Source of the DNA: Marinobacterium stanieri
Lineage (GTDB): Bacteria > Pseudomonadota > Gammaproteobacteria > Pseudomonadales > Balneatricaceae
NCBI RefSeq assembly: GCF_900155945.1
Contig: NZ_FTMN01000001.1
Span: 945,682-1,009,681, forward strand
DNA: 64,000 nucleotides
Direction: 5' to 3'
Part shown: positions 55,795 through 59,673 of the stretch, piece by piece
How positions within the stretch are numbered: position 1 is the stretch's first letter
Layout: each line of letters opens with the position of its first letter
Made by a program: the position numbers and the translations under genes
Notes under the pieces: model-generated
What the model saw: the letters and a program-made list of their open reading frames with translations, nothing else
Database searches by the model: none
What the model was told of the DNA's origin: nothing

Positions 55795-55871
55795 TGCGGG
55801 GTGGAGCAGTCTGGTAGCTCGTCGGGCTCATAACCCGAAGGTCGTTGGTTCAAATCCAGCCCCCGCTACCA
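55795..55871 (+). tRNA. initiator tRNA-fMet (CAT), copy 1
   Basis: A complete 77-nt cloverleaf with encoded CCA: D stem GAGC/GCTC, anticodon loop CTCATAA with CAT, anticodon stem TCGGG/CCCGA containing the three consecutive G-C pairs that mark initiator tRNAs, T arm GTTGG-TTCAAAT-CCAGC. The 1-72 pair is mismatched (T-T), as expected for an initiator, though E. coli has C-A. Followed by a terminator and a defective copy. Confidence 0.97.
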
Positions 55872-55880
55872 AATTCAGAG

Positions 55881-55910
55881 AAAGCCGATTTCGAAAGAGA
55901 TCGGCTTTTT
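55881..55910 (+). terminator. GAAA-loop terminator after tRNA copy 1
   Basis: A 12-bp stem (AAAGCCGATTTC with GAGATCGGCTTT) closed by a GAAA tetraloop, followed by T residues. The same element recurs after the array units. Confidence 0.9.
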
Positions 55911-55925
55911 CGCTTTCTGGGCAAT

Positions 55926-56011
55926 GGGTTACGAGCCTGGTAGCGCGTCGGGCTCAGCTCTTGATAAACCCCGGGCGAAGGTCGTTGGTTCAAATCCAGC
56001 CCCCGCTACCA
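55926..56011 (+). pseudogene. tRNA-fMet-derived pseudo-tRNA P1
   Basis: The T arm and 3' acceptor with CCA are identical to the real tRNA. The 5' acceptor strand is replaced (CAATGGG) and pairs with only 3 of 7 bases. The D stem has GCGC instead of GCTC. The anticodon loop carries an 8-nt insert and 5 extra bases follow the 3' stem. It cannot form a normal tRNA. The 3' end is the left border of the hipBA insert. Confidence 0.85.
55990..56009 (+). other. left direct repeat (candidate att) of the hipBA insert
   Basis: TCAAATCCAGCCCCCGCTAC, tRNA 3'-end sequence at the end of P1. It recurs at 58482-58501. tRNA 3' ends are common integration sites. Confidence 0.7.
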
Positions 56012-56020
56012 AATTTTAAG

Positions 56021-56054
56021 AGGCAGATCAGGTACTTACCGGTCTGCCTTTTTT
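56021..56054 (+). terminator. intrinsic terminator inside the insert's left end
   Basis: AGGCAGATC pairs with GGTCTGCCT (9 bp, one G-T), and GGTA/TACC extends the stem inside; six T residues follow. Its sequence differs from the array terminators, so it probably belongs to the insert. Confidence 0.75.
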
Positions 56055-56231
56055 CGTTTTATTATTTGAAATCGCTCTGTGCCCGCAGTGTGCCCCCTCT
56101 CTATAGTTCCTTTCTGCTCCTCTGGAACTAGCATGAACTTCAGGCTTCTACACCGGCACAGTGCACAAACAGCTTCAGAAGCCTGAAGAAACACTTTTTA
56201 CAGATCGCGATCTCACTACTAGGTCAAAAGC

Positions 56232-56444
56232 TCACTCTTCGCCCGTCTCATCTTTGAAATGAGTGACAAGGCTTTCAATCTCAAAATTGAAGTAGAAGCA
56301 GAGCTTATCCAAGTTATCTGTAACTGTACTGCTGCCTTGATGATTCAACATCTTTGATAGGGTCATCCTGTTAATTCCTGTTTCATTAGCAATCTCAGAA
56401 ACAGTAACCCTCCTCTTCTCCTGGAACTCCTTCGGACGTTCAAG
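56232..56444 (-). pseudogene. XRE-type HTH regulator fragment
   Basis: An open frame of about 70 codons without a start codon before the homology. It encodes [20 protein letters not shown] followed by a Cro/C1-like C-terminal helix pair (LDKLCFYFNFEIESL), the pattern of short Cro/C1-type HTH proteins. The N-terminus is missing where it meets the helicase fragment on the other strand. Likely a decayed gene. Confidence 0.55.
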
Positions 56445-56600
56445 TCATTGTCGCAACCGATAAGTACATTGGAGAGGGATTCGACCTTCCCAGATTGGAT
56501 ACGCTGTTTCTCGCACTGCCCATTGCATGGAAAGGAACCTTGTCTCAGTACGCGGGCAGAAGGACCAAATCTTTTGCTAGAGCCAGCAAGGAAAACCGGC
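56429..56600 (+). pseudogene. superfamily 2 helicase fragment
   Basis: Frame 56438 onward reads [20 protein letters not shown] and then [22 protein letters not shown], matching motifs V-VI of DEAD/DEAH-like helicases associated with mobile or defence loci. Homology ends abruptly after the Gly-Arg and a stop follows soon after. A second short frame further on ([18 protein letters not shown] then stop, to about 56667) may be the tail of another lost gene. Confidence 0.6.
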
Positions 56601-56680
56601 CTTCGCCAACCTGTTCATGTCCACCATGCTGGACCAGCAGTTGATCCAGTCGAATGAGGATTTCTAGATCCCGAGATCAA

Positions 56681-56735
56681 TTTGATATGCTAATATATAT
56701 AATATGACATCAGTGATTCGTTATGGCATATCAAA
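56681..56735. promoter_or_regulatory. hipBA promoter with 10-bp inverted repeat
   Basis: TTTGATATGC (56681-56690) and GCATATCAAA (56726-56735) are perfect inverted arms 35 bp apart. A TATAAT at 56698-56703 lies between them, and the right arm abuts the hipB ATG. This fits an autoregulatory operator for HipB or HipBA. Confidence 0.6.
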
Positions 56736-57053
56736 ATGAGCTATGTAACCGAGCCGATAGTGGCGACCCTTCGCGAAGCACGGGTACGTAAAGGGTTGAG
56801 CCAACGGGAGCTGAGCGCGCGCTCGGGTGTACCACAAAGCCATATCTCGAAAATCGAGTCAGGGAGTGTTGATCTACGCGTGTCCAGTTTGATTGCACTC
56901 GCCCGTGTGCTCGACCTGGAGCTATTGGTTGCGCCTAAAAAGTCTGTTCCTGCGATACAGTCGATCATTAGAAGCAGTAGCGGTAGCGGTACTCACGTTG
57001 AAGGTGAGCAGGTGTCGCCAGCCTACCTTTTAGATGAGGAAGACGATGACTAA
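56736..57053 (+). CDS. hipB: HipB-like antitoxin, XRE family
   Basis: A 105-residue protein with an XRE helix-turn-helix (about residues 8-65; LSQRELSARSGVPQSHISKIESG) and an acidic C-terminal tail ending in EEDDD. HipB neutralises HipA and represses its own operon. It overlaps hipA by 8 nt. No Shine-Dalgarno precedes the ATG, which is flush with the operator arm. Confidence 0.88.
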   Translation: MSYVTEPIVATLREARVRKGLSQRELSARSGVPQSHISKIESGSVDLRVSSLIALARVLDLELLVAPKKSVPAIQSIIRSSSGSGTHVEGEQVSPAYLLDEEDDD

Positions 57054-58257
57054 CCTTGTGTCCACTCTGAATGTTTTGCTGCACGGCGAACCTGTCGGCA
57101 CGATCACCAACGTGGGTCATGACAGAACGCTATTTGCTTTTACAGATGGCTACATCAATGATGAATCGCGACCGGTGTTAGGGCTTGGCTTTAAAGATTC
57201 GCTGGGCGGCTTGCTGACTGATTTCAAACCAACCCAAACCCGATTGCTTCCGTTTTTCTCCAATCTACTGCCAGAAGAAAGGATGCGCCACTACTTGGCA
57301 GAGCGTGCAGGCGTGAACCCGGCGCGGGAATTTTTTCTATTGTGGGCACTCGGACAAGACTTGCCAGGTGCAATCACAGTAGAGCCAGCCAATGGTGAAG
57401 CGCTCCCACCAAATTATCATAACGAGACGCAAGGTGATCCTAAACGTAAGGCACCCATGCGCTTTTCATTAGCGGGTGTGCAGTTGAAATTTTCCGCCGT
57501 GCAACAGGCAAAGGGTGGTTTAACGATCCCGGCAACAGGCCAAGGCGGCTCATGGATTGTGAAGTTGCCGTCGTCTCGATTCGAAGCTGTACCCGAAAAT
57601 GAATATTCGATGATGGAATTGGCACGCATGCTGGGAATGGATGTGCCAGAGACCCAGCTGCTGCCGATTAATCAGATTGCCAATATCCCGGAAGGGATCG
57701 GACAGTTTGGTGAAAGTGCCTTTGTGATCAAGCGTTTTGATCGTGCGGATGGCCGTGCCATACATATTGAGGACTTTGCCCAGGTGTTTGGCGTATACCC
57801 TCACGACAAGTATCAAAAAGCCAGTATGCGTAACATTGCTCAGGTGCTGGGAATAGAAGGTCAAGATGAGGACATTGCCGAATTTACCCGCCGATTGGTC
57901 TTCAATACGCTGATAGGCAATGCGGATATGCACCTGAAAAATTGGTCGGTGATATACAAAGATAAGCACACAGCATCGATTGCCCCCGCGTATGACTTTG
58001 TTTCGACCGTACCCTATATCCCCGATGATAGTGCGGCCCTAAAGGTCAGCCGCAGTAAAAAGTTCAGCGACTTCACGTTAGATGAGTTATCACACTTGGC
58101 CGCGAAAGCCATGTTGCCGGAAAAGTGGGTGTTGGAAATTGCCAAGGAAACCGTTGCAGGCTTCAATGAAGTTTGGGCGAGAGAAAAAGCGCACTTGCCC
58201 CTAACCCAATCCATGATCGAGGCTATCGAGCGACACCAGCGCAACATACCAATTTGA
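57046..58257 (+). CDS. hipA: HipA-like serine/threonine kinase toxin
   Basis: A 403-residue HipA. The N-subdomain 1 (about 1-100) precedes the kinase body: the SLAGVQLKFS motif, a nucleotide-binding region GGSWIVKLPS, the Lys in FVIKRFDR, catalytic loop NADMHLKNW with D294, and the metal-binding D317 in PAYDFVS. E. coli HipA phosphorylates glutamyl-tRNA synthetase; the target here is unknown. Catalytic residues appear intact. Start 57046 follows GAGGA. Confidence 0.9.
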   Translation: MTNLVSTLNVLLHGEPVGTITNVGHDRTLFAFTDGYINDESRPVLGLGFKDSLGGLLTDFKPTQTRLLPFFSNLLPEERMRHYLAERAGVNPAREFFLLWALGQDLPGAITVEPANGEALPPNYHNETQGDPKRKAPMRFSLAGVQLKFSAVQQAKGGLTIPATGQGGSWIVKLPSSRFEAVPENEYSMMELARMLGMDVPETQLLPINQIANIPEGIGQFGESAFVIKRFDRADGRAIHIEDFAQVFGVYPHDKYQKASMRNIAQVLGIEGQDEDIAEFTRRLVFNTLIGNADMHLKNWSVIYKDKHTASIAPAYDFVSTVPYIPDDSAALKVSRSKKFSDFTLDELSHLAAKAMLPEKWVLEIAKETVAGFNEVWAREKAHLPLTQSMIEAIERHQRNIPI

Positions 58258-59138: not shown

Positions 59139-59153
59139 CGCTTTCTGGGCAAC

Positions 59154-59239
59154 GGGTTACGAGCGATGGTAGCGCGTCGGGCTCAGCTCTTCATAACCCC
59201 GGGCGAAGGTCGCTGGTTCAAATCCAGCCCCCGCTACCA
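59154..59239 (+). pseudogene. pseudo-tRNA P5
   Basis: As P4, but the T stem is GCTGG/CCAGC, where a C-G pair replaces the T-G pair of the functional tRNA. Confidence 0.85.
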
Positions 59240-59248
59240 AATTCAGAG

Positions 59249-59278
59249 AAAGCCGATTTCGAAAGAGATCGGCTTTTT
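59249..59278 (+). terminator. array terminator after P5
   Basis: GCCGAT variant, perfect stem, GAAA loop, T-run. Confidence 0.88.
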
Positions 59279-59293
59279 CGCTTTCTGGACAAT

Positions 59294-59378
59294 GGGTTAC
59301 GAGCCTGGTAGCGCGTCGGGCTCAGCTCTTCATAACCCCGGGCGAAGGTCGCTGGTTCAAATCCAGCCCCCGCTACCA
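59294..59378 (+). pseudogene. pseudo-tRNA P6
   Basis: Nearly identical to P5, with the GCTGG T stem and the CTTCATAA loop insert. Confidence 0.85.
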
Positions 59379-59387
59379 AATTTAGAG

Positions 59388-59417
59388 AAAGCCGATTTCG
59401 AAAGAGATCGGCTTTTT
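59388..59417 (+). terminator. array terminator after P6
   Basis: GCCGAT variant, perfect stem, GAAA loop, T-run. Confidence 0.88.
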
Positions 59418-59432
59418 CGCTTTCTGGGCAAC

Positions 59433-59516
59433 GGGTTACGAGCTGGTAGCGCGTCGGGCTCAGCTCTTTGTAACCCCGGGCGAAGGCCGTTGGTTCAAAT
59501 CCAGCCCCCGCTACCA
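59433..59516 (+). pseudogene. pseudo-tRNA P7
   Basis: Loop insert reads GCTCTTTG before TAACCCC. T arm as in the functional tRNA, GGCCG in place of GGTCG before it. Confidence 0.85.
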
Positions 59517-59525
59517 AATTTAGAG

Positions 59526-59555
59526 AAAGCCGATTTCGAAAGAGATCGGCTTTTT
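59526..59555 (+). terminator. array terminator after P7
   Basis: GCCGAT variant, perfect stem, GAAA loop, T-run; last hairpin of the array. Confidence 0.88.
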
Positions 59556-59570
59556 CGCTTTCTGGGCAAC

Positions 59571-59673
59571 GGGTCACGAGCGCTGGTAGCGCGTCGGGCT
59601 CAGCTCTTGATAAGCCCTAGATAGATAAACCTAAGGCGAAGATCGTCAGCCAGGATTCAGCCCTGCCGCTACC
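59571..59673 (+). pseudogene. degenerate pseudo-tRNA P8
   Basis: The first 50 bases match the other copies. Extra bases follow the anticodon region and the T arm has decayed (CAGGATTCAGCCCTG). No terminator of the array type follows. It marks the right end of the array. Confidence 0.7.

Follow-up and report, generated by a model that had tools for sequence, protein, structure and literature searches.

Defective copies of the initiator tRNA gene form a widespread but patchy repeat family in Gammaproteobacteria

What accumulates behind an initiator tRNA gene, and is it put to any use? No protein is started without initiator tRNA, and in Marinobacterium stanieri the window (the whole stretch of 64,000 nucleotides that was analysed) holds two intact tRNA-fMet genes accompanied by a row of defective copies. 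This array is not due to chance. Many gammaproteobacteria have related copies at the corresponding position, a sign of one old repeat family, wider than a first-pass annotation made from the window alone could see. The explanation that we tentatively favour, and would put just short of an even chance, is that an old satellite repeat, linked to tRNA-fMet and shaped by unequal exchange and gene conversion (concerted evolution), has expanded locally here. What is new here is the family outside the window, a broken, recurring companion of initiator tRNA genes in many genera; recurring pseudo copies beside tRNA-fMet were not met in the open-licence papers that we searched.

The copies share a stretch that the first-pass annotation missed. 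The intact gene reads CTC-ATAACCC-GAAGG around the anticodon, and the complete copies of the window (P1 to P6 below) have 20 or 21 nt, for example AGCTCTTCATAACCCCGGGC, between CTC and GAAGG; this common stretch, about AGCTCTTTATAA...GGC, replaces 7 nt of the anticodon region. P1 to P6 retain CGTCGGGCTC, the T arm, the 3′ acceptor strand and CCA, in agreement with the earlier description of the complete units, and the window copies lack the 5′ half of the tRNA and the 3′ anticodon stem CCCGA. The copies cannot work as tRNA. A covariance-model scan, proposed earlier as a check, accepts the intact genes I1 and I2; P1, the only window pseudo copy that the Rfam tRNA model lists at E up to 1, falls below the cut-off (21.5 bits against 29). 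No window copy reaches the RF00005 gathering cut-off with an anticodon in a 7-nt loop, and ARAGORN calls I1 and I2 only. The parts of the array, all on the plus strand, are as follows.

55749-55777, plus strand: sigma-70-like promoter of I1 (TTGACA-17-TAGTAT, 10/12)
55795-55871, plus strand: I1, intact tRNA-fMet gene (ARAGORN; Rfam RF00005, 63 bits)
55878-55912, plus strand: GAAA-loop hairpin and T run 3′ of I1, terminator type A (sequence; fold -23.2 kcal/mol)
55934-56011, plus strand: pseudo-tRNA P1 with anticodon-loop insert (profile match 55942-56012, 72.6 bits)
56020-56055, plus strand: terminator type B, 3′ of P1 (sequence and fold)
58477-58503, plus strand: 3′ fragment of a pseudo copy, T loop to CCA, right border of an inserted island (sequence; weak profile match 58477-58501, E 0.045)
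58568-58639, plus strand: 5′ fragment of a pseudo copy with insert (profile match 58575-58639, 40.9 bits)
58696-58724, plus strand: sigma-70-like promoter of I2 (TTGACA-17-TAGTAT)
58741-58817, plus strand: I2, intact tRNA-fMet gene, identical to I1 (ARAGORN; Rfam RF00005, 63 bits)
58890-58959, plus strand: pseudo-tRNA P2 (profile match 58890-58960, 72.6 bits)
59031-59099, plus strand: pseudo-tRNA P3 (profile match 59031-59100, 78.8 bits)
59171-59239, plus strand: pseudo-tRNA P4 (profile match 59171-59240, 76.6 bits)
59310-59378, plus strand: pseudo-tRNA P5 (profile match 59310-59379, 76.6 bits)
59448-59516, plus strand: pseudo-tRNA P6 (profile match 59448-59517, 73.3 bits)
59588-59673, plus strand: P7, degenerate last copy (profile, 32.1 bits)

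What was first said of this arrangement is confirmed. By ARAGORN and Rfam the window has exactly two tRNAs, both tRNA-Met(CAT) of 77 nt and mutually identical, and the order is I1, P1, the island, the 3′ fragment, the 5′ fragment, I2, the five complete copies P2 to P6 and the degenerate P7. The profile, which was built from pseudo copies, gives the eight defective copies counted before if the two fragments are taken as one broken copy, and Tandem Repeats Finder resolves 58782-59617 into a 140-bp unit, the length already described, repeated 6.0 times at 94% matches. Hairpins of -20 to -24 kcal/mol precede a T run behind I1, P1, I2 and P2 to P6, and the fold test found none behind the 5′ fragment or P7. 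A simple terminator scan listed none of the array's hairpins, perhaps because their stems run into the T run. Type A also stands behind the intact gene in G001 and G005, and type B is the type found behind intact tRNA-fMet in four genomes of the same genus (G003, G004, G006 and G007). A scan for sigma-70-like sites, whose number of listed sites in 55600-59800 is not above that of shuffles, places none on the plus strand of that interval besides those of I1 and I2. We note that long open frames cross the array (59218-59577, minus strand, and 59013-59624, plus strand), the former reading VAGAGFEPATF, the antisense of the T arm and a likely source of false protein annotations, and that directly behind the array 59682-59966 (minus strand) encodes a small secreted-looking protein with a tail rich in Lys, Asp and His.

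When one window unit was used as a query, matches in other genera began inside the unit, and a like insert was found there downstream of intact genes. A pattern scan of species genomes, in which tRNA-fMet had to carry 8-30 nt between TCGGGCTC and GAAGGTC with the insert sequence left unspecified, returned at least 117 stretches and four viral ones, 121 loci of which some come from one genome. Read by eye, 83 are insert-bearing pseudo copies, 23 are archaeal and 15 are trivial (short insertions, internal duplications, N runs and phage attP-like sites; one, L131 of Paraburkholderia, is a degenerate copy whose 11-nt loop is unlike the insert). An archaeal-type tRNA intron was rejected as the nature of the insert: the archaeal loci keep CCCGAAGG, and the window copies lack both it and the 5′ half. 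The hosts among the matches listed are Shewanella, Parashewanella, Psychromonas, Pseudoalteromonas, Vibrio ouci, Motilimonas, Catenovulum, Paraferrimonas, Amphritea, Marinobacterium, Motiliproteus, Neptuniibacter, Halomonas, Saccharospirillum, Natronospirillum, Microbulbifer, Pseudohongiella, Acinetobacter and Thiohalophilus, the inserts of Thiohalophilus and Pseudoalteromonas rubra fitting the consensus poorly. The comparison with related genomes, which the first-pass annotation had named as a check, finds copies downstream of tRNA-fMet in many genera. Its statement that the 5′ acceptor strand is always lost describes the window copies and fails in relatives, where full-length insert-bearing copies exist (L102 of Shewanella pneumatophori and L122 of Parashewanella). 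In another Shewanella locus a near full-length insert-bearing pseudo copy (L205, 1484-1570, minus strand) passes the Rfam tRNA model at 42.4 bits (cut-off 29).

A core of the insert can be made out across orders. For its conservation 41 loci were asked, 37 yielded a copy and 34 of these were of class 1, one copy being taken for each taxon chosen, several of them from Shewanella and with no correction for kinship. Across the 34 representatives majority shares lie at 0.44-0.88 (mean 0.66) over the first 12 insert columns, with a core of C 0.76, T 0.71, C 0.76, T 0.88, T 0.71 and A 0.82, and the last three columns reach G 0.65, G 0.79 and C 0.85; the flanks have mean majority shares of 0.39 (32 columns upstream of the D-arm remnant) and 0.36 (40 columns behind CCA). 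Similarity among inserts is 0.732 inside a taxon and falls to 0.663 across taxa, a difference reached in 0/1000 permutations, and shuffled inserts give 0.517. In a second class, from Pseudohongiella, Microbulbifer and several metagenome-assembled genomes, the second half of the insert holds a hairpin such as CCGGCGCAGCCGCT, mostly with GCCCGA ahead of TCGGGC, and one Natronospirillum insert (L118) joins a class-1 first half to a class-2 second half. Closer to the window, the single copy of the congener G002 has a 20-nt insert equal to those of P4 and P5, and its spacer looks unlike theirs. These data bear on the idea that one and the same templated mutation within tRNA-fMet has produced the insert many times over, the arrays being young in every lineage. 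Such an origin would suit the presence of AGCTC, CATAACCC and CGGGC in the intact gene as well, and also the patchy distribution described below; the TTT of CTCTTTATAA, however, has no template in the gene, the inserts are alike by taxon, and L118 joins both classes. We regard it as highly improbable.

The repeat family is widespread but patchy. In the taxonomic family to which the window belongs, at least 30 of 99 genomes have copies, 24 by a strict pattern (the reversed pattern gave none) and six more by profile (G002, G021, G023, G026, G030 and G034). A Shewanella set assembled around G493 has copies in 22/117 genomes, including five already known to carry them (G493, G499, G500, G501 and G502), and an even sample of the class has them in 4/370, the window's own genome among these. 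Seven tRNA-fMet loci of the window's genus were read; six lack a copy, and only G002 has one. A control pattern for tRNA-Val matched in 48/117 genomes of the Shewanella set, every printed row intact; its lower bound equals the intact gap, so that it returns intact genes and serves as its own positive control. A tRNA-Gly pattern gave 0/117 in the same set, lacks a positive control and is not used here.

How the copies relate to the genes beside them is seen in the clusters, from which duplicates were removed by shared 120-mers (106 of 125 kept, the filter also dropping some distinct arrays). The 106 clusters hold 263 pseudo and 146 intact copies, and 18 have no intact gene in the DNA examined. 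For 86 complete copies from 55 clusters, the identity of the 3′ half to the best intact gene nearby, in the same cluster, is 0.971, against 0.853 for intact genes of other clusters; the own-cluster match is the higher in 86/86 and exact in 50. The order is polar: the first element is an intact gene in 67 of the 78 clusters with a readable start, and the last is a pseudo copy in 74 of the 79 with a readable end. Judged by a simple folding criterion, terminators lie in 0/37 intact-intact, 39/103 intact-pseudo, 62/130 pseudo-pseudo and 0/33 pseudo-intact steps. Arrays of Shewanella and Paraferrimonas (L158, L173, L200 and L205) combine several intact genes with up to ten pseudo copies, and another locus (L050, G042:C85, 5887-6978) holds nine tandem intact tRNA-fMet genes spaced by about 127 bp near a contig end.

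Our favoured explanation, a satellite under concerted evolution, builds on the insert shared across genera, the place behind an intact gene, the polarity, and the 3′ half that tracks the local intact gene. The ancestor would have been a tRNA-fMet duplicate whose anticodon loop gained about 13 extra nt and whose 5′ half was often lost, and on account of both changes it would have been unable to work as a tRNA. Unequal exchange, or slippage during replication, between the nearly identical 3′ halves and terminators may then add and remove units, while gene conversion may hold the 3′ half equal to the working gene. The array may persist at the 3′ end because terminators there spare the working copies.

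Several results weigh against this explanation. Were the repeat purely neutral, its insert core should be gone between orders, and yet the core can be aligned; that it is still recognisable across orders speaks for some constraint or repeated exchange, which a satellite process alone does not explain. This footprint between genera is the strongest result against a wholly neutral reading. Nor does a satellite give any reason why repeats go with tRNA-fMet and are absent from tRNA-Val, the single further tRNA whose test had a positive control. A pseudo copy comes first in 11/78 clusters, and since 64 of the 103 intact-to-pseudo steps have no terminator, many copies are probably transcribed together with the tRNA. 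Within seven arrays the insert and the spacers diverge to much the same degree (0.029 against 0.046, p=0.375), which is compatible with constraint and with its absence. It is possible, though to our minds doubtful, that the copies are instead a conserved gammaproteobacterial element, an initiator-tRNA analogue of the RtT repeats discussed next, in which a selected CTCTTTATAA core replaces the anticodon loop. Such an element would act either at the DNA level, as a site, or as an RNA set free from the transcript of tRNA-fMet, and would be duplicated together with the gene.

An element with a task has a possible model in the repeats behind tyrT of E. coli, which the first-pass annotation had named as the closest known case. 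The E. coli K-12 tyrT region, our positive control, gives four matches to the RtT model (132.9-137.5 bits) in the order tRNA, RtT, tRNA, RtT, RtT, RtT, and every one of these units (the rttR repeats) closes with the 3′ end of tRNA-Tyr; the same model (RF00391, 45 bits) finds none in 55700-59800 of the window at E up to 1. In layout the comparison stands: the window units lie behind and between tandem tRNA genes and carry the tRNA 3′ end, and intact and pseudo copies alternate in the window and in Shewanella as tRNA and RtT do at tyrT. In kind it does not, since RtT goes with tRNA-Tyr and these units with tRNA-fMet, and since RtT units have long complementary arms (by eye) whereas the window units, each a half tRNA carrying a short insert, share no fold. 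The window array is therefore like RtT in layout and is not a member of the RtT family. We know of no settled function for RtT.

The corresponding proposal for tRNA-fMet would have a small RNA cut from the tRNA transcript, or from readthrough, that presents an unpaired CUCUUUAUAA seed followed by the T arm and the terminator. It would fit the core conserved between unalike flanks, the tyrT-like layout, the terminator-free majority of intact-to-pseudo steps, and a spacing from intact to pseudo copy that peaks at 34-39 nt (27/67, duplicates still included). An unpaired seed would also agree with inserts no more structured than their shuffles (class 1, z 0.15, standard error 0.12, n=57). Against it, the window copies come after terminators and have no promoter-like site of their own, most genomes of the taxonomic family and of the Shewanella set lack a pattern match, as do 6/7 of the same-genus loci a copy, and a terminator stands behind only 32 of 94 last copies. 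The folds do not help: three window units have z of -0.10, 0.37 and 0.36 and three different structures (the intact gene has -1.20), and the copies show no common fold. We think a functional RNA of this kind unlikely. The strongest objections to an RNA that cells need are the absent promoter, the terminators ahead of window copies, the absent fold and the frequent absence from relatives, and the earlier suggestion of small RNAs is weakened for the window copies, which lie mostly behind terminators and fold no better than shuffles; in relatives, with their many terminator-free steps, it may still apply. The companion suggestion, decoys for tRNA-processing or initiation factors, found no support, the acceptor stem being generally not rebuilt.

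Other structural and coding candidates were tried and rejected. A rebuilt acceptor stem (in the window, UGGUAGCG against CGCUACCA) gives a mean z of -0.40 over 108 distinct copies, and the 19/108 below -1.5 include full-length copies and D-arm remnants, so that it is not general. A hairpin within the insert fails for class 1, by the values just given, and for class 2 (z -0.20, n=8). No covariation was found in the insert at fixed offsets; in the class-2 alignment L181 alters both sides of one CGGC-GCA-GCCG pair and breaks another, too little for a claim. A coding role is not borne out by class-1 inserts of 15-21 nt without a fixed frame.

The island between P1 and I2 raises a further question, whether integrative elements directed at tRNA-fMet have used the copies as landing pads or left them as remnants of attachment sites, with serial integrations leaving displaced 3′ halves behind. 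The island is not part of the array, and its features are these.

56060-58476, no strand assigned: inserted island
56736-57053, plus strand: HipB-like helix-turn-helix protein (PF01381, 2.6e-15)
57034-58257, plus strand: HipA kinase (PF07804, 3.6e-52; PF13657, 1.2e-20)

On both sides the HipB/HipA island adjoins T-arm/CCA sequence from pseudo copies. One of its segments (about 56172-56450) resembles, at 78-83%, the DNA beside a tyrosine integrase gene (PF00589, Arm-DNA-bind_2) near tRNA-fMet in the congener G007. No integrase was seen among the island's open reading frames (ORFs), and the attR of G007 was not found. Read 3′ of P1, the order is terminator B, G007-like DNA, HipB/HipA and the T-loop-to-CCA fragment, which means either that an element entered a pseudo copy or that a pseudo copy recombined by crossover with an intact gene already occupied, whose 3′ part came to lie behind the pseudo copy. 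A second congener, G003, has an 8.5-kb element at tRNA-fMet whose far end is a second 3′ half starting at CATAACCCGAAGG. This element encodes a prokaryotic Argonaute (PIWI, PAZ_3) along with a WYL protein (L228, G003:C17, 14235-16538), and it is possibly a defence island at a tRNA-fMet hotspot.

Elements thus use tRNA-fMet in this genus, and the earlier mention of integration sites suits the HipBA island. As an account of the array it is improbable in our view. Three results weaken it, namely the integrase map, the attR of G003 and the DNA between arrays. In 13 genomes no PF00589 integrase lies within 15 kb of an array, some arrays being near contig ends, and the nearest matches are 16-19 kb away (G000, G002 and G040). 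The attR of G003 keeps CATAACCCGAAGG and lacks the insert that the pseudo copies carry, so that these are not identical to a displaced part of the tRNA. The ORFs between the arrays of G009 and of Marinobacterium profundum are ordinary chromosome as judged by eye, without a family search; in G009 an ORF just before a pseudo copy (L038, 7184-8266) resembles by eye a group II intron reverse transcriptase. Moreover, intact and pseudo copies alternate, the island junction could also come from the crossover described above, two patterns gave no class-1 copy in viral contigs, and no element with an insert-bearing attP was seen. Partial tRNA genes left by integrative elements have been described (van der Gulik et al. 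2023, PMC9897764), and they resemble the present copies as truncated tRNAs beside an intact gene; they differ in that here most copies have no element between them, the units are tandem, they alternate with intact genes, and the insert is absent from the G003 att remnant.

A phage or plasmid origin was likewise rejected: the matches listed cover at most 58% of the query, and several of the phage ones are annotated as tRNA-Met. One plasmid match that was read is an intact tRNA-fMet, with no pseudo copy in the stretch printed. On this plasmid (L218, Acinetobacter pKO16_MAC, 14.6 kb) the tRNA-fMet is missing from the gene table, has a terminator-like hairpin and sits between the genes of a DNA methyltransferase and an XRE regulator.

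Repeats of other tRNAs offer a wider setting. Photobacterium phosphoreum has a repetitive tRNA-Pro operon with tRNA-like repeats, built on another tRNA than here. In Pseudomonas fluorescens a tandem tRNA duplication changes tRNA copy number (PMC7661048); there the reported product is a new tRNA gene, and here it is a set of pseudo copies. The family described here shows a route by which bacterial tRNA pseudogenes stay matched to the working gene, and its arrays, together with the sister genomes that lack them, form a natural series in which tRNA-derived repeats as parasites of tandem tRNA genes may be weighed against RNAs with a task.

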